Numbered from the stretch's first letter, positions 4,989-22,399 are shown. The stretch: 36,008 bases of DNA from Bacteroidales bacterium (GCA_016936595.1 JAFGXO010000104.1:1-36008); one strand, 5' to 3'. Numbers and translations: made by a program. Notes: a model not told the origin generated them from the sequence alone.

Positions 4989-5861
4989 TTAATATTCCCA
5001 AAGATCTTGTTCAAAATTAAAAATTTCATTTTTAATTCTATCAGATTCTAACAAAACTTCTAAACCAGTTTCATATTCAAGAATTGCTCGTTGATAAGGA
5101 TTTGATTCCATAAAAATATAGCTTGAAAAAAATCTTTTTTGGAAAACATCGTCAAACGAAATATTAGTTACATCAGTATAAGGACTATATATTTGGCTAC
5201 GAGCAAGTAAAGGGCGAGCTTCGGGATAATAAATCCAAAAAACTTTTTTATACAAAGGACTAGTTTGATCAATATCATCAGCACGATAATATTTTCTAAT
5301 TGGGCAAAACCCAATAATACGCACATCCATAACAGAACGTTGTTTGTCAAAAAACCATAATTCTTTAACTAAATAAGAGCTAATAGATGAAGAATTATAA
5401 GGTATATCAACAGAAACTGTATCAAACCCTTCGATAGTTTCCACTACTTGCACATCTTGCCCGGCGCCCATTTCAACGTGAATTTCGTCTTCAGTCATAA
5501 TAACGTCAAATTCATTTCCGGCATCAGAAGCACGAACTCTATAAGCCGTTAAACCCTGAGTATGCACACCATCTAAAATAATATCAATTAAACTTTTAGT
5601 TCCTCTTGTTGGAGTTGCAGGAAGAGCAAGAACATGATTCATCTTTTCGGATAATTCAATTCTACGCCATATTATACGAGACCACATTACATCGGCTTCG
5701 CGAACATACTGGTAAGGCATTGGCACATCATTAGCAATATGCACCTCACGATAAGGTAAGGGTTGAACGTGTGTACCGGTTCCTTGTGCTACTAACTCAA
5801 TGCTACAAACAGAACTTAATAATAAAAATAAGACAAATGTATTAAATATTTTTTTCATCAT
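4989..5861 (-). CDS. GldN/PorN-family T9SS protein, second copy (GldO-like paralog)
   Basis: 290 residues with a signal peptide (about 1-25, ending LVAQG). From residue 25 on it is nearly identical to the adjacent upstream GldN: the same AQGTGTHVQPLPYREVHIAN start, DRIK.EIFNFEQDLWEY end and equal length. The signal peptides differ completely, and most substitutions in the mature part fall in residues 132-161. GldN/PorN proteins form the periplasmic ring with GldK/PorK that couples the type IX motor to the outer-membrane machinery (established family knowledge). Flavobacterium johnsoniae also has a GldN paralog, GldO, next to gldN, so this copy may play a similar partly redundant role. It is bracketed by terminator-like hairpins on both sides, so it may be expressed separately or by read-through. 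Confidence 0.9.
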   Translation of the reverse strand: MMKKIFNTFVLFLLLSSVCSIELVAQGTGTHVQPLPYREVHIANDVPMPYQYVREADVMWSRIIWRRIELSEKMNHVLALPATPTRGTKSLIDIILDGVHTQGLTAYRVRASDAGNEFDVIMTEDEIHVEMGAGQDVQVVETIEGFDTVSVDIPYNSSSISSYLVKELWFFDKQRSVMDVRIIGFCPIRKYYRADDIDQTSPLYKKVFWIYYPEARPLLARSQIYSPYTDVTNISFDDVFQKRFFSSYIFMESNPYQRAILEYETGLEVLLESDRIKNEIFNFEQDLWEY

Positions 5862-5930
5862 ATATAAATTTACGAATCAGTTATCTTTAAAATAAAACTT
5901 AAAAAAAGAACAAATTATTGCAAAAAAAAC

Positions 5931-5966
5931 AAATAAAAAAAGCTGACAATATCATGAGTCAGCTTT
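5931..5966 (-). terminator. Intrinsic terminator between the two gldN copies
   Basis: Minus-strand reading gives a perfect 9-bp stem (AAAGCTGAC / GTCAGCTTT) with a 10-base loop, followed by a T-rich tail (TTTT A TTT). It lies just after the stop codon of the first gldN and well before the start of the second, so it should reduce expression of the downstream copy unless that copy has its own promoter. Confidence 0.75.
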
Positions 5967-5988
5967 ATTAATATTTTAAAAACAGTTT

Positions 5989-6861
5989 CTAATATTCCCA
6001 AAGATCTTGTTCAAAATTAAAAATTTCAGTTTTAATTCTGTCGGATTCTAAAAGAACTTCTAAGCCTGTTTCATATTCAAGAATTGCTCTTTGATAAGGA
6101 TTAGATTCCATAAAAATATAACTTGAGAAGAATCTTTTTTGGAAAATATCATCAAAAGAAATATTGGTAACATCAGTATAAGGGCTATATATTTGGCTAC
6201 GGGCAAGCAAAGGGCGTGCTTCGGGGTAATGTACCCAAAAAACTTTTTTATACAATGGACTAGTTTGATCAAAATCATCAGGACGATAATATTTTCTAAT
6301 AGGACAAACACCAATAATTCTTACATCCATTACCGAACGTTGTTTATCAAAAAACCATAATTCTTTTACAAGATAAGAGTTTATTGAAGCAGAATTATAA
6401 GGAGTAGTAACAGTAACTGTATCATAAACACCCGGTTCTACCTCAACAACCTGTTGATCGGAGGCAGCCCCCATTTCAACATGAATTTCGTCTTCAGTCA
6501 TAATAACGTCAAATTCATTACCGGCATCGGAAGCACGAGCACGATAAGCAGTTAAACCTTGAGTATGAATTCCGTCAAGAATCACATCAATTAAACTTTT
6601 GGTTCCTCTCGTTGGAGTAGCAGGAAGAGCAAGAACATGATTCATCTTTTCAGACAATTCAATTCTTCTCCAAATAATTCTTGACCACATAACATCGGCC
6701 TCGCGAACGTATTGATATGGCATTGGAACATCGTTAGCAATATGAACCTCTCGATAAGGTAAAGGTTGCACGTGTGTTCCGGTTCCCTGAGCCATTAAAT
6801 CGGCAAAGGCAAAAAACAACATAAGGGGTAATAATGCCCAGAATTTGAATGATTTTCTCAT
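5989..6861 (-). CDS. gldN: Gliding motility / T9SS protein GldN (PorN)
   Basis: 290 residues with a signal peptide (about 1-24, FAFADLMAQG). The mature protein carries the family hallmarks READVMWSRIIWRRIELSEK (about 53-72), KELWFFDKQRSVMDVRIIG and the C-terminal NPYQRAILEYETGL region (family knowledge). GldN/PorN is a periplasmic component that binds the GldK/PorK lipoprotein to form the outer-membrane-associated ring of the type IX secretion system. The gene follows gldM in the conserved K-L-M-N order but is separated from it by a strong terminator-like hairpin. A near-identical paralog lies immediately downstream. Confidence 0.94.
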   Translation of the reverse strand: MRKSFKFWALLPLMLFFAFADLMAQGTGTHVQPLPYREVHIANDVPMPYQYVREADVMWSRIIWRRIELSEKMNHVLALPATPTRGTKSLIDVILDGIHTQGLTAYRARASDAGNEFDVIMTEDEIHVEMGAASDQQVVEVEPGVYDTVTVTTPYNSASINSYLVKELWFFDKQRSVMDVRIIGVCPIRKYYRPDDFDQTSPLYKKVFWVHYPEARPLLARSQIYSPYTDVTNISFDDIFQKRFFSSYIFMESNPYQRAILEYETGLEVLLESDRIKTEIFNFEQDLWEY

Positions 6862-6905
6862 GGTTATTGATATAATTTTAATTTGACAAATATTTTTTCA
6901 AAGAT

Positions 6906-6953
6906 AAAAAAAAGAAGTTTTAACAAAAACTCTTTTTTATTAAAACTTCTTTT
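6906..6953 (-). terminator. Intrinsic terminator after gldM
   Basis: A perfect 13-bp inverted repeat (AAAAGAAGTTTTA / TAAAACTTCTTTT, arms at 6910-6922 and 6941-6953) with an 18-base loop, followed on the minus strand by further T residues. It sits between the gldM stop codon and the gldN start codon. The stem is AT-rich, but long and flawless. Confidence 0.7.
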
Positions 6954-6983
6954 AAGTAAGAATATTGTATGTAATCAGTAAAA

Positions 6984-8513
6984 TTATTGCAATTTAAAGC
7001 TAATTGAACCAAGACTACGAATACTTCCATCGGGAGCACGTGCTTTTATATTTTCAAAATAAACTTTTTGACCTCTATTTAACTGACGTATAATACCTTG
7101 TTGTTGAGCAGTAATAGTTGCTCCGGAAGTTGACTGTTCTTCAGTAAAACCTTGAATTGTTGCAGACACAGAAAATCCTGTAACAGGAAAAGCTAAATCG
7201 AACACAAAGTTATCAAGTTGAGCTTTTACAATTCTTTGGCTCAAAAGAACTTGTTGCGAAATAACACCACCTTTCATCCCTCCAACAGTTGCGTAAGGGT
7301 CAGGTACAGGCAAACATCTAAATTGCATAGAACCAGCGGTATTACCATCAGCAATCACACTAATTGTAGCAGTACCAGTTGAAGTAACTTTAGCGTTATA
7401 TTTACCGGCACCTCCGTTAGAAGTTAAACGACCTCCAGAACCGGAAATAGTAGCAGAAATATCACGACCGGTAGCAGTTACTTGAATAGGATTATCAACT
7501 CCAATATAAAGAACATTCATTTTTGTAGGAGAAATAGCCCAAGTAGGAGCAACAACTTGATATTGGTGTTCAAATGGGAATCTTGCAGTATCACCGGTAG
7601 CAGGATCTTTAAGAAGGATTTCCCCTCCCCAAGTAAAAGTACCAGGAGAACCAGTTCCGGGGTTATAAACACCTTTACCATTTTGAACATCTAATTTAGT
7701 ACCATTATCGAGAACAATAATAGGATCTTTTGTAGAGTCATACGCAGCAATAAAAACTTCAGCAGTAAAATCTTCACCAACCTTAACATAACTATTTGGA
7801 GCATTAACAATTGCTTCAATTGTATTAAATTTAAAATCACTTTTACCAATTTGTCCAAGCAAATAAGTTAACATATCAGATTCTACATTTCTGATATCAT
7901 TTTGCATTTTAGACATCATTGCTATAACAGCAATCAAAGGCAAGTGTTCAAAGTTTGCATTAGCCCATGGCAAATAAGTTCCGGGTTCGTTAGCAGACTC
8001 AATATCGGCAGTACTAAGAATATCTTTAACGTTATGAGCTAATACAGTAGTGGTATCAGAAATTAAACTTAGAACAAAATCTCTGTAAGCGTCAATTTCA
8101 TCTTTAAGAGCTTCACCACGACCTTCAAGTATCATAACCTGTCCGCCCACATTGTTATCGTCTTTTTTGTTAATATGATCAACATCACCCTCGGGTCCAT
8201 CGGCCACAACAACTAAGTCATATTTATCTTGTTTAATTAAAGAGTCTAATTCATTAGTTTTTAACTTAAGTTGTTGAGCATAATCATAGTATATTCCAAC
8301 TTTAGTAGGATTTTCTTTAAATGCTTTTTCAAATTCGCCGTATGCATCAATATTTTTAGTTTTAACGTTATCGGTAGCTTCTATAATACTTTTGTTAATA
8401 AGCACAAAGGCATTAAGAATTTCGGCAGAAACGTTTAGAGCCAACATTGCCGTAAGAAACAGATACATCAAGTTGATCATTTGCTGCCTTGGGGATAAAC
8501 CTTTTTCAGACAT
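6984..8513 (-). CDS. gldM: T9SS/gliding motor protein GldM (PorM)
   Basis: 509 residues. A short cytoplasmic N-terminus (MSEKGLSPRQQMINLMYLF) leads into one transmembrane helix at about 15-38 that contains Glu31, the intramembrane acidic residue conserved in GldM (family knowledge). The remainder is a large periplasmic region with several beta-rich domains, including GGRLTSNGGAGKYNAKVTST and the end MKGGVISQQVLLSQRIVKAQ onward. GldM dimers with a GldL pentamer form the proton-driven rotary motor of the type IX system; the periplasmic shaft contacts the GldK/GldN ring. The gene begins 22 bases after gldL without a hairpin between them, so gldL-gldM appear to be one transcript, ended by the hairpin at 6906-6953. 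Confidence 0.96.
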   Translation of the reverse strand: MSEKGLSPRQQMINLMYLFLTAMLALNVSAEILNAFVLINKSIIEATDNVKTKNIDAYGEFEKAFKENPTKVGIYYDYAQQLKLKTNELDSLIKQDKYDLVVVADGPEGDVDHINKKDDNNVGGQVMILEGRGEALKDEIDAYRDFVLSLISDTTTVLAHNVKDILSTADIESANEPGTYLPWANANFEHLPLIAVIAMMSKMQNDIRNVESDMLTYLLGQIGKSDFKFNTIEAIVNAPNSYVKVGEDFTAEVFIAAYDSTKDPIIVLDNGTKLDVQNGKGVYNPGTGSPGTFTWGGEILLKDPATGDTARFPFEHQYQVVAPTWAISPTKMNVLYIGVDNPIQVTATGRDISATISGSGGRLTSNGGAGKYNAKVTSTGTATISVIADGNTAGSMQFRCLPVPDPYATVGGMKGGVISQQVLLSQRIVKAQLDNFVFDLAFPVTGFSVSATIQGFTEEQSTSGATITAQQQGIIRQLNRGQKVYFENIKARAPDGSIRSLGSISFKLQ

Positions 8514-8535
8514 ATTAAATTTTTTTTAAAGTTAA

Positions 8536-9465
8536 TTAATCAGCTTGAACATTCATAGCAGAAAGCATTTTTCCATAAACACCATTAAGAGCGCCTAAAT
8601 TTTTGCTAAGTTTAGTAATTTCTTCAGAGTATTTTTTGGCATAAACTGCAGATTCTTGAACATCTTTAACCATATCTTCAAGGTTAGCTTCGCCAAGCTG
8701 CATTTCAAAAATAGCATTGATTGCAGTAAGATTTTTATTTAAACCTGAAATTTTATCGTTATATTCACTATTACCTTCGGCAAGAGTTGAAAAGTCTAAA
8801 TCCATAGAAGCAACTAAAGTTTGATAAGCATTAGTTAAACTATCTTTATTAGAATTAACGGTTTCTTGAGTTTTATTAAAAGCATCACTTAAACCATCAA
8901 TAGAATAAGTAATATTTTGAGAAGCATTAGACAGCTCATCAGCTGATTTTTTGTAAGTGTCAGAAAGCTGGCTAACATTGTTAGAAGCTTTTTTAACATT
9001 ATCAGAGAATTCAGTTGTAGCTACAGTAGCATCAGTAATATCATTCATTTTAAGAACATTATCACTTAATTTGGTTAAACCAGTATTTAATTTTTCAAAT
9101 AGACCGTCATCACCTGCTTTTGCTAACATTTCATCAAATTTAGCGAACGAATCCATAGCAGGAACAGCTACTTGAGCACCTTTTGTGCCTTTATTAGAAC
9201 CTGAAGATAAAATTTCGTCTTCTAATTCGTCAGATACTTTTAATTCGGGATAAACCAAAGTCCAGTCAATTTCTTCGTGAGGAGGCTCAACACCAGACAA
9301 GAAGAAAATAAAGGCTTCAACAAGTAAACCTACAGTAAGCATAACGGTTGCACCGGGCCAGTGAGTAATTTTAAACAACGCACCTACCAATACAACAGAA
9401 GCACCCCAGCTTTGCACTTTGTGCATAAGGTTTTTCCACCAAAATTTTTGCATAAAATCAGCCAT
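8536..9465 (-). CDS. gldL: T9SS/gliding motor protein GldL (PorL)
   Basis: 309 residues, longer than flavobacterial GldL and close to what I recall for Porphyromonas PorL. Two transmembrane helices lie at about 18-34 and 38-57 (WGASVVLVGALFKITHWPGA, then VMLTVGLLVEAFIFFLSGVE). They carry charged residues Lys32, Glu50 and Glu60 that correspond to those implicated in proton conduction in F. johnsoniae GldL (family knowledge, alignment by eye). The C-terminal two-thirds (about 110-309) is a cytoplasmic helical region with repeated Asn/Ser/Leu-rich coiled-coil heptads. With GldM it makes the inner-membrane motor. The gene is preceded by a 308-base non-coding gap that includes the gldK terminator, so it needs its own promoter or read-through. 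Confidence 0.96.
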   Translation of the reverse strand: MADFMQKFWWKNLMHKVQSWGASVVLVGALFKITHWPGATVMLTVGLLVEAFIFFLSGVEPPHEEIDWTLVYPELKVSDELEDEILSSGSNKGTKGAQVAVPAMDSFAKFDEMLAKAGDDGLFEKLNTGLTKLSDNVLKMNDITDATVATTEFSDNVKKASNNVSQLSDTYKKSADELSNASQNITYSIDGLSDAFNKTQETVNSNKDSLTNAYQTLVASMDLDFSTLAEGNSEYNDKISGLNKNLTAINAIFEMQLGEANLEDMVKDVQESAVYAKKYSEEITKLSKNLGALNGVYGKMLSAMNVQAD

Positions 9466-9732
9466 AGTAATTATTTTTAGAATTTAAATTTGTTTTTAAA
9501 AATCGAGTAAAAGTATAAAGTTTTTTTTTTATTACAAATTTTTTTTGATTAAATAAAAACAGTATTACAAATAATATTCCAAAAAAAGCCTTTGTAAAGC
9601 AAGGTTTACAGAGAAAAATTATTTGAGCAAAAAATGTTATTTTATGATTGTAAAATGTAAAGTAATCAATTTACAATTTAATAAATCGATTGTAAAGAAA
9701 ATAAAAAAAACACAGAAAAAAAAATGGTTGGT
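9466..9732. other. AT-rich leader/intergenic region between gldK and gldL
   Basis: With the adjoining terminator, 308 bases without a gene separate gldK and gldL. The sequence is very AT-rich with long A and T runs and short repeats of ACAAAT and TGTAAA type. I found no open reading frame worth calling and no exact TAnnTTTG promoter on the minus strand; the nearest imperfect match is TATTATTTG (complement of 9569-9577). It probably holds the gldL promoter and an untranslated leader. Confidence 0.4.
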
Positions 9733-9766
9733 AAAAAAATAAAAAAAAGGGCTAATTAAAGCCCTT
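9733..9766 (-). terminator. Intrinsic terminator after gldK
   Basis: Minus-strand AAGGGCT - TTAATT - AGCCCTT, a 7-bp stem with a GC core rare in this DNA, followed by eight T, one A and seven more T. It begins just 7 bases after the gldK stop codon and is the most convincing terminator in the window. Confidence 0.85.
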
Positions 9767-9773
9767 AAATTTT

Positions 9774-11249
9774 CTAATAGCCGTCCCAAGATTGGACGTC
9801 TTTTCCTAAGTAAGTTCTTGCATTTCTAAAGCCAATATAAGATTTGGCAGTATCTTGATATTCATAAGTACGAACACCATTTTGCAAATAATAAGCAATA
9901 TCTTTCCAAGAACCACCACGAACAACTTTACGTTTTAATACGATAGGATCATCAATAGCAGCGTTTCGCTGATCAATTGGATTTAAGTCATGTGTCATAT
10001 TTGAAGTAGCATCGTCAAAATTACCCGAAGTCCATTCTGCAACATTACCGGACATATCGTATAATCCGTAATCATTAGGCAAATAAGAAGCAACGCTAAT
10101 TGTTCTGTTTGCTCCATCAAGGGCGTACATTCCACGCATAGGTTTAAAGTTTGCAAGTAAACAACCTTCGTTATTTCGAGCATAAGGACCTCCCCAAGGG
10201 TAAAGAGTTAAATCTCTTCCACCTCTTGCAGCATATTCCCATTCAGCTTCAGTAGGTAGTCTGTAATTTTCAACATCAGAAACACCTTGAGAGCTATTAA
10301 AAGAATTATTTATTTGAGTTCTCCAGTGAGAAAAAGCATTAGCTTGATGCCAATTTACACCAACGAGAGGATAATCGTCAAAAGCAGGGTGAGCAAAATA
10401 CATTCGAGTATAAGGTTCATTGTAAGAATAAGTATAATCGGCAATCCAAACAAGAGTATCAGGATAAATAGCTACTTTTTGATGTTGAACCAAAGCAGAA
10501 CGAGTATTAAAAGGTTCATCTTGTCCATAGTTGTCATAATCATAACTAATAATTCTTGCTGTTTTTTGATCATCAGGAGTAGTAGGCTCATCATAAGGAC
10601 CGTAGTGACCTTGTGGTAATTGACCGGTACCACCTAAATCATCATAAACATATCTGTTATTTTTCTTGGCAGCTTGTTTTAAATCTGTGTACCAATATTC
10701 ATAAACGAATTTTCGTGTGTCAAATTCTTTTCGACCATATAATGCGTCTTGCTGGCTATAATACATATCTTGAACAGCGTCATTAATTTCAGGACTTTCG
10801 CCTTTCCAAATAAGTTTTCTATTTCTCCAATTCAAATGGACCTGATTGGGGTCAGAAGGATCATAGAATTGAGTATTGATATTTGGGTCATCATTTTCAA
10901 TTTGAAAATCAGTTATTCCATTTTGAACACAAAGTCTCATTGCAATAGAATCTCTAACCCAAGCAACGAACTGACGATATTCGTTATTAGTAATTTCAGT
11001 ATAATCCAACCAAAAAGCGTCTATAGAAACAGTTTTAGGTTGTGCAGTCATTGCAAAAGGCACATCTTGGTCGTTTGGTCCCATGTTAAAATCACCTTGA
11101 GGGATAAAAGCCATTCCGGTTGGTTGAGTTTCAAACCAAGAAGGACGGTTTTGCACACCAAAAACCTCTCCGTTGTTTCCGGACTTACAACCCATAAAAA
11201 CTAAAGATACAAGGGCTCCAAGCAACAGAATTTTATTCATTTTTTTCAT
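9774..11249 (-). CDS. gldK: T9SS/gliding lipoprotein GldK (PorK)
   Basis: 491 residues. The N-terminus is a lipoprotein signal (MKKMNKILLLGALVSLVFMG then Cys21). The rest is a formylglycine-generating-enzyme (FGE-sulfatase) fold: FIPQGDFNMGPNDQDVPF, DAFWLDYTEITNNEYRQFV, YRLPTEAEWEYAARGG, YDMSGNVAEWTSG and the closing RGGSWKD..YYLQ..R are all visible. GldK keeps this fold but acts structurally, forming with GldN a ring under the outer membrane (established knowledge). The start could instead be the ATG at 11240; I kept 11249 because it gives a lysine-rich signal n-region. It follows the porP-like gene by 37 bases, a probable shared transcript ended by the terminator at 9733-9766. Confidence 0.96.
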   Translation of the reverse strand: MKKMNKILLLGALVSLVFMGCKSGNNGEVFGVQNRPSWFETQPTGMAFIPQGDFNMGPNDQDVPFAMTAQPKTVSIDAFWLDYTEITNNEYRQFVAWVRDSIAMRLCVQNGITDFQIENDDPNINTQFYDPSDPNQVHLNWRNRKLIWKGESPEINDAVQDMYYSQQDALYGRKEFDTRKFVYEYWYTDLKQAAKKNNRYVYDDLGGTGQLPQGHYGPYDEPTTPDDQKTARIISYDYDNYGQDEPFNTRSALVQHQKVAIYPDTLVWIADYTYSYNEPYTRMYFAHPAFDDYPLVGVNWHQANAFSHWRTQINNSFNSSQGVSDVENYRLPTEAEWEYAARGGRDLTLYPWGGPYARNNEGCLLANFKPMRGMYALDGANRTISVASYLPNDYGLYDMSGNVAEWTSGNFDDATSNMTHDLNPIDQRNAAIDDPIVLKRKVVRGGSWKDIAYYLQNGVRTYEYQDTAKSYIGFRNARTYLGKDVQSWDGY

Positions 11250-11286
11250 AATAGTAAGAAATTTTGTTCAAGTTTATATTGAAGAA

Positions 11287-12222
11287 TTAAAGAGTTTTAA
11301 CATTTCTGTATTTCATAGGGTTTCCCCCGTTTAAAAAAGAGAAACAATAACCAACGTAAGCTTCAAAAGTTCCGGAGGAAACTCTATTTAAATAAGTTAA
11401 CGACAAATCATAAGATAAACCAAGTTTTAAATTATTAAAATAAGAAGTTCCAACCATAAAAGCTAATGCTGCCTTGTTTCTATAAGTAACGCTTGCCCAG
11501 AATTTTTTATTGTACAGGGCAAAAATATTAATGTCAAATTGCATATCATTTCCTATAGATTTTACGAATATCGAAGGAGTTAAGTCGATAGCTGAATTAG
11601 CTACTTTAATGTTGTATCCTCCAATAAAATAAAAATGATTTACCAAAAAAATTGAGCTGTTAGTGCCACCTTCGGTTTCGGATACAAAATAAAAATTGGG
11701 TCTTAACAAATGAGAAGAAGATAAGCCTACAAACAATTCATTCCAAATATAAAATGCACCAACGCCTAAATCAAAAATTGTTGCATTAGAATTTGCCTCA
11801 AGAATTGGTTCGTTTTGGTCGGGAAATTTCCAAGAGGGATCGAATTTTTTATTAAATATGCCGGGACTTACTCCGAAACTAATTTTACCTAAACCCAAAT
11901 CTTTTTGAAAAGACAAATTAAATCGAGCTTTAAAGTCATGAACAAAGCCATATCTGTCGTCAACAAAAACTACTCCCCCCCCCCATTTTTGATTTAACAG
12001 GTTAAAAGGAGCATCAACAGAAAGAATTGTTGTTAAAGGAGCGTTTTCGAATTTTCGCCATTGCTGATGCGAGAGTAAATTTACACAAACCTCTCCTTCT
12101 AAACCAGCGTAAGCAGGATTAAACGTGGTTTTCATAAAATTATAGTGCGTAATCAAGGGGTCTTGCTGCGCATATAAAAACGACGTAAAAAATAAAAATA
12201 TTAGTAAAAAATATTGTCTCAT
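11287..12222 (-). CDS. porP: PorP/SprF-family type IX secretion outer membrane protein
   Basis: 311 residues from the ATG at 12222, which gives a clean signal peptide (MRQYFLLIFLFFTSFLYAQQ); the frame is open 20 codons further upstream. Family hallmarks are DPLITHYNFMKTTFNPAYAG (residues 21-40), LLSHQQWRKFENAPLTT, and a series of amphipathic beta-strands ending in a barrel-type C-terminus (AYVGYCFSFL). PorP/SprF proteins assist the type IX system at the outer membrane, and some bind the cell-surface adhesin partners (family knowledge). It heads the porP-gldK unit. Residues W80-G83 are encoded by a run of ten G, remarkable in this AT-rich DNA. The symbol is by family; the specific paralog (porP or a sprF) cannot be fixed without alignment. 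Confidence 0.9.
   Translation of the reverse strand: MRQYFLLIFLFFTSFLYAQQDPLITHYNFMKTTFNPAYAGLEGEVCVNLLSHQQWRKFENAPLTTILSVDAPFNLLNQKWGGGVVFVDDRYGFVHDFKARFNLSFQKDLGLGKISFGVSPGIFNKKFDPSWKFPDQNEPILEANSNATIFDLGVGAFYIWNELFVGLSSSHLLRPNFYFVSETEGGTNSSIFLVNHFYFIGGYNIKVANSAIDLTPSIFVKSIGNDMQFDINIFALYNKKFWASVTYRNKAALAFMVGTSYFNNLKLGLSYDLSLTYLNRVSSGTFEAYVGYCFSFLNGGNPMKYRNVKTL
11975..11984 (-). repeat. Homopolymeric (G)10 tract inside porP
   Basis: Ten consecutive C on the plus strand (G on the coding strand) encode part of Trp80-Gly81-Gly82-Gly83. This is the only long G/C homopolymer I saw in the window. In the given sequence it keeps porP in frame; gain or loss of one base would truncate the protein after about 80 residues. 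Confidence 0.9.
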
Positions 12223-12267
12223 TTTTAATAAAATTGAAGCAAAATAAAAATAATTTTTGGTTAATAA

Positions 12268-12275
12268 CAAATTTA
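12268..12275 (-). promoter_or_regulatory. Candidate -7 promoter element for porP-gldK
   Basis: The minus strand reads TAAATTTG, an exact TAnnTTTG match, 45 bases upstream of the chosen porP start codon. No TTTG element stands at the canonical distance upstream. The position would place a transcription start at about 12260, and would leave the 12283-12397 AT-rich gap untranscribed by this promoter. Confidence 0.35.
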
Positions 12276-12397
12276 AGAACAAATATTAAATTTTGGTTGT
12301 TTTAAGAGCTATAATATGTTGCCTATTTTGAGATTAAAAAATTAATTTTAGCATAAAAATCAAAGGTTTTTTTTTTAATAAAAAAATCAACAAAAAT

Positions 12398-15733: not shown

Positions 15734-16477
15734 CTAATTTTTAAACTCAACTAACATATAAACTGCAAGACTTAATGAAACTAAAAAAGAAATAATTGAC
15801 AATATTTTCCAAAACATATTTATGTCTTTTACTACTGTTTCTGTTTTGGTTTCTATTTTAGGATCAATATTTTTTTTATCTCTAAAAGCAATTGCGATTG
15901 CAAATTCATCAACATGACTAATTGAAATAATAAAGCCTTGAAAAAATGGTTTTCCAAAATTATCATAATAAATTTCAAACGAGTTAAAAGGTTTATTTTT
16001 CAATAAATTATTTGCTTTAACAAGAGCTTCTTTAACAGCAAAAACACCGGCAAAACTCTGTATTGGAGATGGTTGTAAAATACAATGAGCAATTTCAGAA
16101 TCAGTGAAATTTTGTTTATAAAACTCATCTTCTCGAAAATCAGCAACTTCTTTAAAATTCGCAATTTTCTCAATATCAATTCCAACAGAAAGATCAGAAT
16201 CATCAATTTCAGTATTAATTGGTTCTGAATTATTTAACGAATTGTATTCAATATTCTGTTTTAAATTTATTTTTTCTATTAATTGTCCAAAAGTTTTTAT
16301 ATCGGTGTAATTTTCAACATCATAACCTAATTCTGCAAATTCAGCATACATTCGGTGTATCAATATCGAGCCTTGAACAACTGTTTTATCAATAACTGTA
16401 TCATTATTTATTTCAGCTACATTTTTTTTTATAAAATTAGCTAAAACATTCCTTAACTCTAAATAATTTGAATCCAT
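15734..16477 (-). CDS. Fusion: acyl-carrier-like domain + AcpS-type phosphopantetheinyl transferase + membrane anchor
   Basis: 247 residues from the ATG at 16477 (a longer start at 16531 would overlap E2 by 47 bases). Residues 1-72 resemble an acyl carrier protein: helix one, then VVQGSILIHRMYAEFAELGY (33-52) with Ser37 at the position of the ACP phosphopantetheine serine, and TFGQLIEKI matching the final ACP helix. The usual DSL is GSI here. After a linker, residues 97-199 carry all AcpS motifs: VGIDIEKI (98-105), FTDSEIAHC, FAGVFAVKEALVKA (142-155), FGKP and ISISHVDEFAIAIAF, so the transferase looks active (moves phosphopantetheine from CoA to a carrier serine). A single hydrophobic helix at about 223-243 near the C-terminus probably anchors it in the inner membrane. 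It follows the E2 gene by 7 bases. I recognise the PPTase domain firmly; the ACP domain is a by-eye call. Confidence 0.78.
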   Translation of the reverse strand: MDSNYLELRNVLANFIKKNVAEINNDTVIDKTVVQGSILIHRMYAEFAELGYDVENYTDIKTFGQLIEKINLKQNIEYNSLNNSEPINTEIDDSDLSVGIDIEKIANFKEVADFREDEFYKQNFTDSEIAHCILQPSPIQSFAGVFAVKEALVKANNLLKNKPFNSFEIYYDNFGKPFFQGFIISISHVDEFAIAIAFRDKKNIDPKIETKTETVVKDINMFWKILSIISFLVSLSLAVYMLVEFKN

Positions 16478-16484
16478 ATTTTTA

Positions 16485-17747
16485 TTAAAATCCGGTGAAA
16501 CAAGTTTGACAAATATATTTTTCTTGTCCATTTTTTACAACTACTTTTAAAAATCCTACGTCATTAAAATCATCATTTAAAGATTTAAAGCATTTATAAC
16601 ACTTTATAGATTTATCAATTTCATTAGATTCTCTTTGAGCGTAACTTTCTATTCTGTTTTTAAGTTCACGAAGAAAAATCGTTGCTTTTTTTCCGGCTGT
16701 TACTCTATGATCAAAAGCAAGAGAAATTGTTGTTCTGTCTAATTTTTCGTCGTTGGCAGAAACGCCAATAATTGCTGAATTATTTTTATTTATCAGCGGA
16801 ACAAACGAAGAAGCACCCTCAGAAGACAAGTCGGTTATAGTAAATGTAATATCAGATAAATCATCAACCGAAAGCTTATTATCTATGTATTTATTTGACA
16901 ATTCAAAAACTTCTTTTTCAATCTGTTGAATAGATTTTGAAACAGTGTCCGAAATTTTGACTGTTTTTAATCCGTTATCCATATCAATTGCAAATCCAAC
17001 ATTAATATCCTTAAAAATAGCAATCTGATTATCAACAAAGTAAGCATTAAACTCAGGATATTTTTTTAATAATTTTGAAGTTTCGAAAATAATTACCGGC
17101 AACAAAGAATTTTTTAAATATTTCAGATGAGGATTAATTTTTAAAAATAAACCTTTTGTATCAATATTAATATTGACAAGACTATTTAAATTTGCATATT
17201 GAACCGCTTTTAAATAATCAATCTCTCTTTTTTTGTTTTTTGAAATATCTTCTAACAAAACTTTAGTTTCATCAACATTAATTTGAATTGTCTTTTGAGT
17301 TTTTTCTTCATTTTTTGAAGAATTTTTCAATCCAAGAATCAAAAAAACATCGTCTAAATTAACAAAATCAAAATTTTTAAACTTAGAATTATCAATATTA
17401 TTTTGTTCAATATATAATAGTGCTTTTTTAGAAAAAATAGTATTTTCAATTTTTTCTTCAAATAAAAGATGTGTTTTTTTTACCTCTACTAACTGATTTT
17501 CAACAATTTGATCAAAAATTTGAATAATAATTTCGCCAACACTAACATCTTGTTCTTCTTTACAAAAATATTTAATGTATCCATCAACTTGGCTTTCAAT
17601 AGCAAAAATAGTTTTTGAAGATTCCAATTCAATCAAAACGTCACCAATTTCAACAAATTCATTATTTTCAAAAAACATTTGAACAACAGAAACATATTCG
17701 TCATTAACAGATTCTTGCGGGATTTTAATTTCTTGTAAAACTTTCAT
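16485..17747 (-). CDS. 2-oxoacid dehydrogenase E2-like acyltransferase with lipoyl domain and C-terminal zinc ribbon
   Basis: 420 residues. Residues 1-80 form a lipoyl domain with the expected modified lysine Lys45 (ELESSKTIFAIESQVDGYI). A short peripheral-subunit-binding-like segment follows (about 104-140, FSKKALLYIEQNNID...LDDV), degenerate. Residues about 172-370 are the catalytic acyltransferase domain: KYPEFNAYFVDNQIAIFKDI, NVGFAIDMDNGLKTVKI, FTITDLSSEGASSFVPLINK, and the active-site AFDHRVTAGKKA (344-355), where the His347 base is present but the Asp common in DHRxxDG is Ala351. The last about 40 residues add a Cys4 zinc ribbon (Cys383/Cys386 and Cys413/Cys416), which I do not know from ordinary E2 proteins. 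Such enzymes accept an acyl group from E1 via the lipoyl arm and pass it to CoA or a pantetheine thiol. It overlaps the E1 stop codon by one base. Confidence 0.88.
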   Translation of the reverse strand: MKVLQEIKIPQESVNDEYVSVVQMFFENNEFVEIGDVLIELESSKTIFAIESQVDGYIKYFCKEEQDVSVGEIIIQIFDQIVENQLVEVKKTHLLFEEKIENTIFSKKALLYIEQNNIDNSKFKNFDFVNLDDVFLILGLKNSSKNEEKTQKTIQINVDETKVLLEDISKNKKREIDYLKAVQYANLNSLVNINIDTKGLFLKINPHLKYLKNSLLPVIIFETSKLLKKYPEFNAYFVDNQIAIFKDINVGFAIDMDNGLKTVKISDTVSKSIQQIEKEVFELSNKYIDNKLSVDDLSDITFTITDLSSEGASSFVPLINKNNSAIIGVSANDEKLDRTTISLAFDHRVTAGKKATIFLRELKNRIESYAQRESNEIDKSIKCYKCFKSLNDDFNDVGFLKVVVKNGQEKYICQTCFTGF

Positions 17748-19675
17748 TATTTATTCAATGATTTTATAATTTGATTAAAAACATTTTGTTCTAATGTTAA
17801 AACTTCATTTTCTAAAGATTTAACAGAAGGAATAGGTACAGGCAAAGAAGCAATACGCTTAGTAAATAATTTATCGTCAATATTTTCACTAATATTAGCA
17901 ATTATTTCACTGCCAAAACCTCCCATTGCACTACCCTCTTCGACCACAAATAACATTTTTGTTTTTTGCACACTATCTATAATAACATTTATATCAACAG
18001 GACTAATTTTTGATATAACTAAAAGTTCAAATTTAAGCTCAGTTTCAACAAAAAGTTTTTCAAGTAAATTTAAAACAACATTTGTTGTACCTCCATAAGT
18101 TACAATTGTAGCGTTAGGATCAGATTTAACAGGACATATTTTAGCTATTGGATATTTATGAGATGATTTTTCAAACTTATAATTTTTTACAAAATTTTTG
18201 TTGATTTTTTTCCCATAATCAAGTTTATTTTCAATTACAATAACAGGGTGTTGTTCTGTTAAAACTTCAGTATATATTTCTTTTGGATTTATTAAAGTAT
18301 TAAGAGCCAATACTGTAACATTGTCAATACCGATTAAGAATTTTTCGAGCGACTGTGAATGAGTTGGTCCGTATCCACGACCACCGCCCATTGGAGTTCG
18401 TATAACAACCGGACAAGTAATTTGTTTGTTATACATGTGATAAAACTTAGAAGCGTGATTAATGATTTGGTCGAAAGCAAGAGTTATAAAGTCTCCAAAC
18501 ATTATTTCAAGAAATGGTTTCATTCCTGCTAAAGCCAAACCATTAGAAATTCCGGTAATGGCAGCCTCGCTAATTGGTGTAGAAAAAACATTTTCAGGAA
18601 ATTTTTCAGATAAATCCTTTGCAACTTTAAAAGCACCACCATAAGGACTTAATACATCTTCTCCGATAAAAACAACTTTGTCATCTAAAGCCATTTTTTC
18701 TTTAAAAAATTCATTTATTAGTTGAACTTGTCGAACATTTTCAGAATTAAGGTCTGTCCATGAATATTCATTAAAAATAGAATTGTTTTCAAAATATTCA
18801 GCCAAGCTCAATTCAGGAACACTTTCTAAATCAGTGACAATTTTATTAATTTGATTTGAAATTTCATTATAATACTCTTCGTACAATTTTTTATTATCAA
18901 CAGAAAAAACATTCAAAGGATCTTTATCGTAAAAACTTTTTACTTCATCTTCATTTCTGTTATCATCACCTTTAGAATGTGCATTAAGTCGGTATGTATC
19001 AACCAAATGAAAAGCAGGTTTCTGATTATTTCTCACATAATCAATTGATTTTTCAGCTTCATCAATTATCTTTTCAACATTCCAAGTATTACTTTTAAAA
19101 GTTTTAACATCAAAAGCATCAGCCCGCTTAAGTATATCTCCCGCCAAGTTAACTTTTTGTTGAGTTGATTGGGCATAAGAATTATTTTCACATACAATAA
19201 GCAAAGGAATTTCCCATTTAGAAATAATATTTAAAGTTTCATACAGAACACCTTCTCCTAAAGTTCCATCGCCAATAAAAACGATACCTATATTCTTGTT
19301 TTTTTTCAACTTATTAGCCAAAGCAAAACCAGCTGCAACAGGTATTATCCCTCCTTGGATACCATTAGAGAAAAAATTACCTTTACATAAATGCTGACTA
19401 CTACCTACTCCACCGCAAGTACCATTTTTTTTGCCCATAAGTTCGGCAATAAGTCCAACTTTATCGCCTGTAAAAGCAATATAATGTCCATGACAACGAT
19501 GATTTGAAAAAATAAAATCAGTTTGTTGAAGCTGACCGGCAAAAGCAATAGCCGAAAATTCCTGTCCAACCGAAGTATGAACGGTTCCATTAAGTTTTCC
19601 TTCAGAAAAAAGCTCAAGAAATTTATTTTCTATTACTCTAATTTCTAATGCATTATAATAAGAACTTTTATTCAT
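17747..19675 (-). CDS. Fused thiamine-diphosphate 2-oxoacid dehydrogenase E1 (alpha-beta)
   Basis: 642 residues, the sum of an E1 alpha and E1 beta chain. The alpha half (1 to about 300) has HTSVGQEFSA, FSNHRCHGHYIAFTGD and the thiamine-diphosphate motif starting GDGTLGEG (135-142) and ending ENNSYA (163-168). The beta half (about 315-642) has FIGEDVLSPYGGAFKVAKDL, TPISEAAITGISNGLALAG with the catalytic Glu370, FDQIINHASKF (His407), GGGRGYGPTHSQSLEKFL, and the C-terminal transketolase-C region EEGSAMGGFGSEI. It should decarboxylate a 2-oxoacid and acylate the lipoyl arm of the adjacent E2. Which 2-oxoacid cannot be read by eye. No E3 gene is nearby. Start and stop overlap the flanking genes by 4 and 1 bases, showing translational coupling within the glycosyltransferase cluster. 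Confidence 0.9.
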   Translation of the reverse strand: MNKSSYYNALEIRVIENKFLELFSEGKLNGTVHTSVGQEFSAIAFAGQLQQTDFIFSNHRCHGHYIAFTGDKVGLIAELMGKKNGTCGGVGSSQHLCKGNFFSNGIQGGIIPVAAGFALANKLKKNKNIGIVFIGDGTLGEGVLYETLNIISKWEIPLLIVCENNSYAQSTQQKVNLAGDILKRADAFDVKTFKSNTWNVEKIIDEAEKSIDYVRNNQKPAFHLVDTYRLNAHSKGDDNRNEDEVKSFYDKDPLNVFSVDNKKLYEEYYNEISNQINKIVTDLESVPELSLAEYFENNSIFNEYSWTDLNSENVRQVQLINEFFKEKMALDDKVVFIGEDVLSPYGGAFKVAKDLSEKFPENVFSTPISEAAITGISNGLALAGMKPFLEIMFGDFITLAFDQIINHASKFYHMYNKQITCPVVIRTPMGGGRGYGPTHSQSLEKFLIGIDNVTVLALNTLINPKEIYTEVLTEQHPVIVIENKLDYGKKINKNFVKNYKFEKSSHKYPIAKICPVKSDPNATIVTYGGTTNVVLNLLEKLFVETELKFELLVISKISPVDINVIIDSVQKTKMLFVVEEGSAMGGFGSEIIANISENIDDKLFTKRIASLPVPIPSVKSLENEVLTLEQNVFNQIIKSLNK

Positions 19676-20226
19676 AATTTAATCTCTCTTTTAGAAATTT
19701 TCACAGCAGGATTACCATGATAAATAAAATAAGAATCCAAATTTTTAGTAGCGACAGAATTAACCCCCAATATTGAATGCGATTTACAAATAATATTAGG
19801 ATATACAACACTTTTTGCTCCTATCCAAACTCCATCTTCAAGTACAATTTTGCCAATTATTACGTCAAAACTTACTTTTGTATAATCGTGGCTTCCGGTT
19901 AATAACATTGCTCCTTGTGAAATACAAACATTATCGCCAATTTCAACATCATCAAGATTATCAATCCAAACATTTTCCCCTATCCAAACATAATTACCGA
20001 TTTTTAATCGCCATGGATATTTTATGTTAACCGAAGGTTTAATAACAACACCCTTACCAACTTTAGCTCCATATAATTTAAGCAAAAAAGTTTTAGTAAA
20101 ATTAAGAGTATTAAAAGGATTTTTGAAAAACAATAGATTTGTATAGTACCAAAATAATCTAATTAAAGAGTTTTTGCCTGGTTTATAAGAATCATTATTA
20201 TATTTAGAAAGGTCTGTTTTATTCAT
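19672..20226 (-). CDS. WcaF-like hexapeptide-repeat acyltransferase
   Basis: 184 residues from the ATG at 20226 (the frame is open 12 codons further upstream, inside the glycosyltransferase gene). The N-terminal part is LIRLFWYYTNLLFFKNPFNT; then left-handed beta-helix repeats occupy about 45-160: GAKVGKGVVIKPSVNIKYPW, IGNYVWIGENVWIDNLDDVE, IGDNVCISQGAMLLTGSHDY and VWIGAKSVVYPNIICKSHSI. The TGSHDY motif with its catalytic-region His and the overall size are those of WcaF/putative colanic-acid O-acetyltransferases (family knowledge). It probably O-acetylates a sugar on an undecaprenyl-linked glycan. The start overlaps the upstream glycosyltransferase and the stop overlaps the E1 gene (ATGA), so it is coupled to both. 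Confidence 0.9.
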   Translation of the reverse strand: MNKTDLSKYNNDSYKPGKNSLIRLFWYYTNLLFFKNPFNTLNFTKTFLLKLYGAKVGKGVVIKPSVNIKYPWRLKIGNYVWIGENVWIDNLDDVEIGDNVCISQGAMLLTGSHDYTKVSFDVIIGKIVLEDGVWIGAKSVVYPNIICKSHSILGVNSVATKNLDSYFIYHGNPAVKISKREIKL

Positions 20227-21370
20227 TGTTAAACATTTTAATGTATTTTTCCACAAAAACATTGTTATCTATAACCGATTTAGCAAAATTAAAAGTATTT
20301 TTGGTAAAATTATCGTATTGAACTTGATTTTGTTCAATCAAGTTATTTAAAACATCAACAAACTTATTTTTGTTACTTAAATCAATATCCCAACCTGCTT
20401 GTAGTTTTTCAAGATTTTGCCAAGGAGTATTTTTACTTGTTATTATTGGAGTTGATGCAATCATACTTTCGAGTAAACTATGTCCAAAATTTTCTCCTAA
20501 AGACGGCATAAATGAAAAATGATAATTACTAAAAGTATCAATTACATTTTTTGTATTTATTGTTCCTTTATAATTAACAATAACATTAGAAGGCATTTTA
20601 GAGATTATTTGCAAACATTCATTCCAATAATTTTCATCATTTATACTTCCATAAATATCAAAAACAATAGAACCTTGTGTGATTTGCAACAATATTTCAA
20701 GTGCAAATTTTGTATTTTTTTCTTGAGAGATTCTTGCTATTGATACTAATCTAACATCGCCGGCACTTTTAGAGATAGTTGTATAAAAAATATTTTTAAT
20801 TTTTCGGGGCAAATTTGGAATAACAACAACAACTTTTTTTCCAATAACTCTTAAAATATCCTGTTTTTCATTATCATTAGTTGCATGAAATTCAACATTA
20901 TTATACAAGCTCCTAATTTTCATTAAAGTCAAAAATAACTTCTTTTTTAAACTTTTCCTTGAAAAAGCGTGTTCCGACAACATTCCTCTTGCACTTACAA
21001 TTACTCTTTTATTCATTGATTTTACAACTAAGAGAGGCAAAATTGAAAAGAAGTAAGAATATATTCCATTAATATATGCTACATCAAAGCCCGTATTTTT
21101 AATCAACTTGCGAATAAAATTTCTATTTAAATTATCATCTGAGATATAAAAAACCTTTACATTTAGAGAAAAATCAACCCACTTATTAGAAATTATATTA
21201 TCGTAAGGTTTAGTTTCCTGATAATCGGTATCAGAGGTTATAATAAAAAACTCAAATTCATTATTCAAATGATTTATTAAATTTGATATTGAAGTAATAG
21301 GTCCACCGGCTTTATAACAAGGTAAAAACCAATCGATAAAAACAAGTATTTTCTGTTTATTTTTCTGCAT
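20219..21370 (-). CDS. Glycosyltransferase, GT4-like
   Basis: 383 residues, GT-B fold. The N-terminal domain opens with the glycine-rich acceptor-side loop WFLPCYKAGGPITSISNLIN (14-33), seen in many GT4 enzymes. The C-terminal donor domain has VRLVSIARISQEKNTKFALE and the EX7E motif in GENFGHSLLESMIASTPIIT (about 304-323), which contacts the nucleotide-sugar donor (family knowledge). It acts on the cytoplasmic face of the inner membrane, adding a sugar to a lipid-linked glycan. The donor sugar is unknown. It overlaps the second glycosyltransferase gene by 14 bases and the WcaF-like gene by 8, so it belongs to the same transcript. Confidence 0.93.
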   Translation of the reverse strand: MQKNKQKILVFIDWFLPCYKAGGPITSISNLINHLNNEFEFFIITSDTDYQETKPYDNIISNKWVDFSLNVKVFYISDDNLNRNFIRKLIKNTGFDVAYINGIYSYFFSILPLLVVKSMNKRVIVSARGMLSEHAFSRKSLKKKLFLTLMKIRSLYNNVEFHATNDNEKQDILRVIGKKVVVVIPNLPRKIKNIFYTTISKSAGDVRLVSIARISQEKNTKFALEILLQITQGSIVFDIYGSINDENYWNECLQIISKMPSNVIVNYKGTINTKNVIDTFSNYHFSFMPSLGENFGHSLLESMIASTPIITSKNTPWQNLEKLQAGWDIDLSNKNKFVDVLNNLIEQNQVQYDNFTKNTFNFAKSVIDNNVFVEKYIKMFNNE

Positions 21371-22361
21371 TTTTAATAACTTCTAAATAAAGGTTGTAAT
21401 ACATTTTAGCAATTTCTTTGCACCTATATTTTTTAACATTTTCAAAACCAATTTCAACTATTTTGTTGCGATAATTTTCATCATCAATTATTTTCACAAG
21501 CCCATTTTTAATATCCTCAACATTAAAAGGGTTCAGAAGCAAAGCACCATCACCAGCAACTTGGTTCATTGGTTGCAAATCGGAGGTAATAACCGGCACT
21601 CCTGTTGCTTGAGCTTCTAAAATTGGAATTCCAAAGCCTTCGTAAATTGTAGGAAAAAGCAAAATATCGGCTTGTTGATACATTTTTACAACATCTTCAA
21701 AATGAAGATTATAATGATTAGAATAATTTATATTAAAATCCTCAAGTTTTTTCTTTTGAGAATCTTTTAATTTACCAACGATAGAAACCTTACAATTTAC
21801 CCCACTTAGAGCCTGAATAGAACGCGATAAATTTTTATTTTCTTTTGTTCCAACAATAAGTATGTTAGGCTTTTTTGAATTAAATTTTTTTTCAACTTTT
21901 ATAAATTTATCGGACACACAATTTGGTATAACAACAAGCTTTCGAGGGTTAACTTTAAAAGTTTTTAAAATTTCGTTTTTAGAAAATTCTGATATAACAG
22001 TTATTTTAGCCACATTTTTAATTGGCAATTTGAACCATATTATTTTTATCAAAAAGTTTTTAAAACCTTTTCCAACAAGCGATGAACCGATATCATGAAT
22101 TGTAAGAATTGTGTTTTTTTTAGGCAAACCTAAAGCAACGTAATTAATATCACCGGTAATATGATTTATTTGTGATTTGTTTTTTTTAACGTAAAGAACA
22201 TTTTTTAACCGTCCAACTATTCCATTATGATAAGTCATAAAAACATTCTCATAATCTGCTTGTTCAGATAAATAATTCTGAAAATTTGCAAACAATTCTT
22301 CAATACTATGAAAAACATCTGAAGGTTTTCTAAAAAAAAATGTAAGTTTAATTTTTTCCAT
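21357..22361 (-). CDS. Glycosyltransferase, GT4 family
   Basis: 334 residues from the ATG at 22361 (MEKIKLTFFFRKPSDVFHSI); an ATG at 22370 is also possible but would sit against the T-run of the upstream terminator. Diagnostic features are ILTIHDIGSSLVGKGFKNFL, AKITVISEFSKNEILKTFKV, VVIPNCVSDKFIKVEKKF, ILIVGTKENKNLSRSIQAL and the donor-binding EX7E in YEGFGIPILEAQATGVPVIT (family knowledge). It is the first gene of the glycan/E1-E2/ACP cluster. Its start codon is only about 11 bases from the end of the atpG terminator, so either transcription reads through or a promoter is hidden in the atpG end. Confidence 0.93.
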   Translation of the reverse strand: MEKIKLTFFFRKPSDVFHSIEELFANFQNYLSEQADYENVFMTYHNGIVGRLKNVLYVKKNKSQINHITGDINYVALGLPKKNTILTIHDIGSSLVGKGFKNFLIKIIWFKLPIKNVAKITVISEFSKNEILKTFKVNPRKLVVIPNCVSDKFIKVEKKFNSKKPNILIVGTKENKNLSRSIQALSGVNCKVSIVGKLKDSQKKKLEDFNINYSNHYNLHFEDVVKMYQQADILLFPTIYEGFGIPILEAQATGVPVITSDLQPMNQVAGDGALLLNPFNVEDIKNGLVKIIDDENYRNKIVEIGFENVKKYRCKEIAKMYYNLYLEVIKNAEK

Positions 22362-22372
22362 TAATAGCATTT

Positions 22373-22399
22373 AAAAAAAATGGCTGTATAAAACAGCCA
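22373..22399 (-). terminator. Intrinsic terminator after atpG
   Basis: The minus strand reads TGGCTGT - TTTAT - ACAGCCA, a perfect 7-bp stem with a 5-base loop, followed by eight T. It ends the ATP synthase transcript about 37 bases after the atpG stop codon, and its T-run ends just upstream of the first glycosyltransferase start. Confidence 0.85.

Follow-up and report, generated by a model that had tools for sequence, protein, structure and literature searches.

A conserved cassette of E1, E2, and a probable acyl carrier protein in glycan gene clusters of Bacteroidota, probably a dedicated acyl donor for surface glycans

Gene organization of the locus

The stretch of DNA analysed here, in the following called the window, comprises 36,008 nt from a Bacteroidales bacterium (GCA_016936595.1, JAFGXO010000104.1:1-36008) and harbors a compact cassette of four genes encoding a WcaF-like acyltransferase, a thiamine-diphosphate enzyme (E1), a lipoyl-bearing acyltransferase (E2), and a protein in which a probable acyl carrier protein (ACP) is joined to a phosphopantetheinyl transferase (PPTase). 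Our analysis suggests that this cassette is real and conserved and probably serves surface glycans as a dedicated source of acyl-ACP. All four genes were confirmed as open reading frames on the minus strand, where they form the distal part of an operon running from 22370 to 15734 in the order glycosyltransferase, glycosyltransferase, WcaF, E1, E2, and ACP/PPTase:

15734-16477, minus strand: ACP-like domain, AcpS-type PPTase, and C-terminal membrane helix in one protein (ACPS above the Pfam cut-off; predicted fold; Foldseek)
16485-17747, minus strand: E2 with lipoyl domain, degenerate subunit-binding domain, acyltransferase core, and zinc-ribbon-like C-terminal tail (Biotin_lipoyl and 2-oxoacid_dh above the Pfam cut-off; alignment; predicted fold)
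17747-19675, minus strand: fused E1alpha-E1beta, thiamine-diphosphate enzyme (E1_dh, Transket_pyr, and Transketolase_C, each above the Pfam cut-off)
19672-20226, minus strand: WcaF-like left-handed beta-helix acyltransferase, candidate final transferase (NF007797 above cut-off)
20219-21370, minus strand: GT4-type glycosyltransferase (Glycos_transf_1, 48.7 bits), overlapping the upstream glycosyltransferase gene by 14 nt
21357-22370, minus strand: GT4-type glycosyltransferase, first gene of the operon (Glycos_transf_1, 88.6 bits)
22382-22398, minus strand: terminator-like hairpin with a T-run, ending the ATP synthase operon and marking the 5' limit of the cassette operon (sequence)

A preliminary description of this DNA had reported the four genes as overlapping or nearly touching, which agrees with a 4-nt overlap between WcaF and E1, a 1-nt overlap between E1 and E2, and a 7-nt gap between E2 and the ACP gene. 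Homologs of the ACP-PPTase begin at the equivalent of 16477, not 16531, and a 265-aa version starting at 16531 is probably too long. It had also been stated that the locus has no gene for a lipoamide dehydrogenase (E3), and none was found within the window; the operon likewise contains no gene for a ketosynthase (KS), a nonribosomal peptide synthetase (NRPS), or a ligase.

Relationship of E1 and E2 to enzymes serving carrier proteins

Pfam and NCBIfam assign both E1 and E2 to the 2-oxoacid dehydrogenase superfamily, and E1 represents a complete E1alpha-E1beta fusion carrying the GDG...N thiamine site. Its best public match outside the Bacteroidota was RenH of the renieramycin cluster, with 48.6% identity over 98% of its length, compared with 25.8% identity to the canonical E1 of its own genome. 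The next-best matches (35-36%) were E1s located beside ACP and E2 genes in NRPS and polyketide synthase (PKS) clusters of Streptomyces and Paenibacillus. In a phylogenetic tree, the E1s of the cassettes, of the lipoyl-NeuD systems described below, and of NRPS/PKS clusters (RenH and the Streptomyces, S. cattleyicolor, and P. polymyxa enzymes) were split from eight canonical E1s with 100/100 support, though the branching order within the ACP-linked group is mostly unresolved. When grouping with E1s of the pyruvate dehydrogenase (PDH), acetoin dehydrogenase, and branched-chain 2-oxoacid dehydrogenase types was tested, the window E1 fell outside them (100/100 branch). Two motifs are common to the ACP-linked group, namely SNHRxHGH and [A/P/S]HSKGDD (SHSKSDD in L099), the latter located in the window at:

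18962-18982, minus strand: E1 motif AHSKGDD, common to the ACP-linked group, where canonical enzymes have GHSKSD (alignment)

For E2, the best public match was RenI (32.5% identity), and the following sites were assigned:

17613-17615, minus strand: Lys45, predicted lipoylation site in ESSK (canonical ETDK; alignment)
16692-16712, minus strand: DHRVTAG, with the catalytic His retained and Ala in place of the Asp of HxxxDG (alignment)
16500-16601, minus strand: CxxC...CxxC C-terminal tail, present in all cassette E2s and missing from RenI and canonical E2s

Thus, the window E2 carries HRVTAG and ESSK instead of the canonical HxxxDG and lipoyl DK motifs. This holds for the ACP-type E2s as a whole, as all 14 lack the Asp of HxxxDG and show SK instead of DK at the lipoyl site, with HRxx[A/E/T]G as the catalytic motif of the group, whereas HRxxDG was kept in 7/7 canonical control E2s. 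The predicted fold of the protein matches E2 cores and retains a complete transferase core. Since E1 and E2 group with pairs that serve ACPs and not with PDH, the NapB/NapD-like logic that had been proposed for a glycan acyl donor by analogy can now be based on homology.

The probable ACP-PPTase-membrane protein

Three features were located within the last protein of the cassette:

16367-16369, minus strand: Ser37, predicted phosphopantetheine site in the motif QGSILIHRMY (invariant in 10 homologs, opening helix 37-49 of the model, aligned to the AcpP Ser)
15881-16189, minus strand: AcpS-type PPTase domain (PF01648 (ACPS), motifs, Foldseek)
15740-15817, minus strand: C-terminal hydrophobic helix, probable membrane anchor (model helix 221-246; hydropathy)

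The model of the N-terminal part revealed helices 3-16, 37-49, and 63-74 with a short turn between them, i.e., an ACP topology in which Ser37 begins helix II, and mainly on the basis of this model, together with a weak profile alignment that matches Ser37 to the phosphopantetheine Ser of ACPs, the N-terminal half is a probable, though not a proven, ACP domain. The PPTase part scored above the cut-off of PF01648, its GIDIE and KEAxxK motifs are invariant or nearly so, and its predicted structure was closest to AcpS and the PPTase of fungal fatty acid synthase in Foldseek. It scored below the AcpS equivalog cut-off and is therefore not the housekeeping AcpS. In 8/8 homologs tested, the hydropathy of the tail (over 19 aa) reached 2.1-3.1, marking a membrane span.

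Distribution and genomic context of the cassette

When 84,980 species genomes were scanned with a profile of the ACP-PPTase, nine loci were obtained, of which eight were true cassettes, all in metagenome-assembled genomes of Bacteroidota. Genomes G364 and G657 contributed two further cassettes, so that about ten Bacteroidota loci are known in total. Strict E1 matches and full-length ACP-PPTase matches occurred in the identical 4 of 295 genomes of the order (p about 3e-9). Based on this co-occurrence and on the conservation of the unit in about ten loci, the cassette is not a chance grouping. Every full cassette contains the ACP/PPTase, and an E3-like gene was found in one only (L098). At locus L050, no E1 was found just upstream of E2, but the contig begins there. 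Locus L052 (Flavobacterium davisii) was rejected as a cassette, as its PPTase lies beside a thioesterase-like gene without E1/E2. No E1 was found in G171, which belongs to the same genus as the window genome; the distribution is thus patchy, as is often the case for surface-glycan genes.

Most cassettes with readable context are situated in glycan clusters, next to glycosyltransferases, flippase-like and polymerase-like genes, and hexapeptide acyltransferases, in L051 also next to PseB and PseC. In G364, genes for a B12-binding radical S-adenosylmethionine (SAM) protein and an ATP-grasp protein lie directly upstream of the cassette (L083:13574-16222), and a second ATP-grasp gene was identified in the cluster of G174 (L085:15006-15998).

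The WcaF-like protein belongs to the WcaF subfamily (NF007797 score of 220 bits, cut-off 192) and remains below the equivalog cut-off for the colanic-acid WcaF (129 < 326). In G174, an ortholog with 81% identity precedes E1 with one intervening gene, while on contig L046 another ortholog ends directly upstream of E1. Overall, WcaF was present in 4/4 cassette genomes tested compared to 6/76 without the cassette (p about 1e-4).

The window genome (G000; 85% complete, 241 contigs) harbors a canonical E1a/E1b/E2/E3 operon on contig C159, so that the cassette was rejected as the main dehydrogenase of the cell. Neither of the two patterns that the preliminary description had named as arguments against a special role was observed: homologous clusters do not regularly combine an E3 with a missing ACP/PPTase, and E1-E2 are not the only dehydrogenase of this kind in the cell. 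Two lipoamide-dehydrogenase-like proteins were found, one encoded in the C159 operon and one on C48, together with one clear ACP on C121 and another PPTase on C19. As the canonical complex, an ACP, and another PPTase exist elsewhere in the genome, the cassette adds to the housekeeping functions and does not replace them.

Sister systems with lipoyl-NeuD fusions

Three sister systems, in genomes G497, G306, and G601, possess E1 relatives (42-45%) followed by a single protein, which joins a lipoyl domain (N-terminal) to a NeuD/PglD acyltransferase (C-terminal) and takes the place of E2 and ACP:

L099:11567-12670, L100:10668-11822, and L101:10312-11466: lipoyl domain and subunit-binding-like segment fused to a NeuD/PglD acyltransferase, beside E1, in nonulosonic-acid or Wbp-type operons

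In G497, the neighboring genes encode PseB and PseC (both above cut-off), a cytidylyltransferase, and a NeuB/PseI-like synthase. The set in G306 and G601 lies among genes for a TviB-like UDP-GlcNAc 6-dehydrogenase, an L-2-hydroxyglutarate oxidase (above cut-off), an aminotransferase, and a Gfo/Idh dehydrogenase, and this WbpA/E/B-type set is followed by amidotransferase-like genes. We take this operon to resemble the Wbp pathway, with the slot of the N-acetyltransferase WbpD occupied by E1 and lipoyl-NeuD. The known sugar N-acetyltransferases WbpD, NeuD, and PglD use acetyl-CoA; the NeuD/PglD fold at the acyltransfer step is common to these and the sister clusters, which differ in the lipoyl domain fused to NeuD and the adjoining E1. 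Since these fusions adjoin sister E1s in sugar operons, they tie the acyl group of E1 to sugars and provide the strongest argument for sugar acylation by these E1s. They constitute a second architecture that looks unreported.

At locus L098 (contig with 51% GC from a genome with 7% contamination, so that the host is uncertain), the cassette adjoins NeuA/NeuB-like genes and its E1 groups with RenH. Its ACP-PPTase gene overlaps a gene (L098:5285-7045) for a 586-aa CxxxxC disulphide oxidoreductase, which is only partly like lipoamide dehydrogenase. An oxidoreductase in this position is what the requirement for an E3 predicts.

Comparison with known systems

The RenH/RenI pair of Candidatus Endohaliclona renieramycinifaciens shares with the cassette the fused E1, the motif signatures of E1 and E2, and a cluster with no E3 among its annotated genes, but differs in its NRPS-type cluster, an E2 without the zinc-ribbon tail, and the lack of an ACP-PPTase-membrane fusion. 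The scleric acid genes SclQ1-4 and QncN/L/M encode E1alpha, E1beta, a lipoyl-acyltransferase, and an ACP with no E3 in the set, the scleric acid set also including the PPTase SclP (PMC6335953). Compared by description, not sequence, they comprise the part list of the cassette (with a PPTase in scl only), though the parts are split otherwise and the acyl group is passed to a peptide or small metabolite. NapB/NapC/NapD and DinS/T/U of the naphthyridinomycin and dnacin pathways transfer a two-carbon unit from ketose phosphate to an ACP (PMC7570522); also compared by description, not sequence, they differ in their NRPS context with a KASIII gene. In the pepteridine pathway, E1 and an E2-T-C fusion prime a carrier protein with an E3 thought to be host-supplied (PMC5384830), with 2-oxo acids as donors and a pterin as acceptor as the differences. 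In these three published cases, which are members or look-alikes of the group, carrier proteins are charged with glycolyl or short acyl units, and priming of ACPs by E1/E2 has been shown or proposed with no E3 among the genes described (PMC6335953, PMC7570522, PMC5384830). Compared to loaders of the Nap/Qnc/Scl/Ren type, the window cassette has a glycosyltransferase operon in place of the NRPS/PKS neighbors that take the acyl-ACP. In agreement with the preliminary description, no E1/E2/ACP module in glycan clusters was found in the open-access literature searched.

Proposed function and alternative explanations

We consider it quite likely that the cassette serves as a dedicated acyl-ACP donor in glycan synthesis, and the whole chain from E1 via lipoyl-E2 and a membrane-tethered ACP to an acyltransferase and a glycan also appears likely; the function of the ACP, the acyl group, the final transferase, and the acceptor are inferred. 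In the proposed pathway, E1 would generate an acyl carbanion on thiamine diphosphate, either from a ketose phosphate, leading to glycolyl, or from a 2-oxo acid, leading to acetyl or propionyl, and transfer it to the lipoyl arm of E2 by reductive acylation. From there, the core of E2 would pass the acyl unit on to phosphopantetheine on the ACP domain, and not to coenzyme A (CoA). The fused AcpS-type PPTase would attach this prosthetic group, and the C-terminal helix would keep the ACP at the membrane. A sugar or glycan would finally receive the acyl unit from a beta-helix acyltransferase, in the window probably the WcaF-like enzyme, while E3 would be supplied in trans. Reoxidation of the lipoyl arm by a shared E3 had already been suggested and is consistent with the lipoamide-dehydrogenase-like genes on C159 and C48; the other option, no reoxidation at all with a ketol donor, had to be abandoned, since the lipoyl disulphide becomes reduced during reductive acylation with any donor. 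By analogy, the chances that the acyl group is glycolyl are about even, with ketose phosphate as the favored donor in view of its use by the documented Nap/Qnc/Scl systems.

Several observations weigh against parts of this pathway. The ACP-like region showed no Pfam match even at E<=10 and went undetected in PDB-profile and phmmer searches, and its hhalign comparison with five ACPs, though end-to-end with Ser on Ser, was weak (P=0.019), its score being reached by 2 of 100 column shuffles. The E2p of A. vinelandii naturally has Asn at the position of the HxxxDG Asp (according to structure entry titles), so that loss of the Asp alone does not imply a changed acceptor and was rejected as proof of one. 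The sequence does not reveal the donor specificity, and pepteridine uses 2-oxo acids. Non-glycan genes adjoin the cassette on one side in L040/L047 and L050. In addition, WcaF relatives with 67-68% identity occur in cassette-free genomes of the same order. WcaF was therefore rejected as a cassette-specific enzyme; it can have another donor and may simply use acetyl-CoA. Of the earlier proposal that the acyl group is passed to a glycan via this or another enzyme, the link to glycans gained support from the lipoyl-NeuD sisters, while the link to WcaF is circumstantial, and its role as the final transferase is conceivable with chances slightly below even.

Among the alternatives, the acyl-ACP could start or extend a short secondary metabolite or lipid tail, with glycan genes adjacent by chance. 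Though the closest characterized setting is NRPS/PKS and the L083 cassette adjoins B12 radical-SAM and ATP-grasp genes, we regard this as unlikely given the recurrent glycan context, the sister lipoyl-NeuD fusions, and a window operon without KS, NRPS, or ligase gene. Somewhat less probable still is an accessory pyruvate or branched-chain dehydrogenase that makes acyl-CoA and lies in a glycan cluster by chance beside an unrelated ACP-PPTase gene: the superfamily assignment of E1/E2 and the retained catalytic His of E2 would fit, but the perfect co-occurrence of E1 and ACP-PPTase, the grouping of E1 with ACP-linked E1s, the canonical complex elsewhere in the genome, and an E3 in one locus only argue against it. 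Direct acylation of a sugar transferase by the E1/E2 lipoyl arm, with the ACP-PPTase merely as a membrane dock, seems very improbable, since it would leave the active-looking fused PPTase and the invariant Ser pointless and E2 keeps a complete transferase core, even if the lipoyl-NeuD fusions show that sister systems can do without an ACP.

For the sugars of bacterial glycans, acyl-CoA is normally regarded as the acyl donor, while LpxA and LpxD use acyl-ACP. More tentatively, E1/lipoyl systems may represent a CoA-independent acylation route for bacterial surface sugars that exists in two architectures (E1-E2-membrane ACP and E1 with lipoyl-NeuD/PglD) and transfers a two-carbon unit, possibly glycolyl from central ketose phosphates, directly out of central metabolism to glycans. 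If true, such a thiamine/lipoyl machine, supplying glycans from a ketose or a 2-oxo acid via an ACP or via a lipoyl arm fused to the sugar transferase, would be a new donor chemistry. It would account for the arrival of unusual short acyl groups on surface sugars and would link natural-product and glycan enzymology. As markers for genome mining, AHSKGDD in E1, HRxx[AET]G with the CxxC tail in E2, the ACP-AcpS-transmembrane architecture, and lipoyl-NeuD could be used.

Neighboring genes

Downstream of the cassette, at 4989-12282, the window carries a Type IX secretion/gliding block consisting of PorP/SprF, a protein with FGE-sulfatase domain (GldK-like), GldL, GldM, and two tandem copies of GldN. 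In G066, the order of this block is identical as far as the first GldN.

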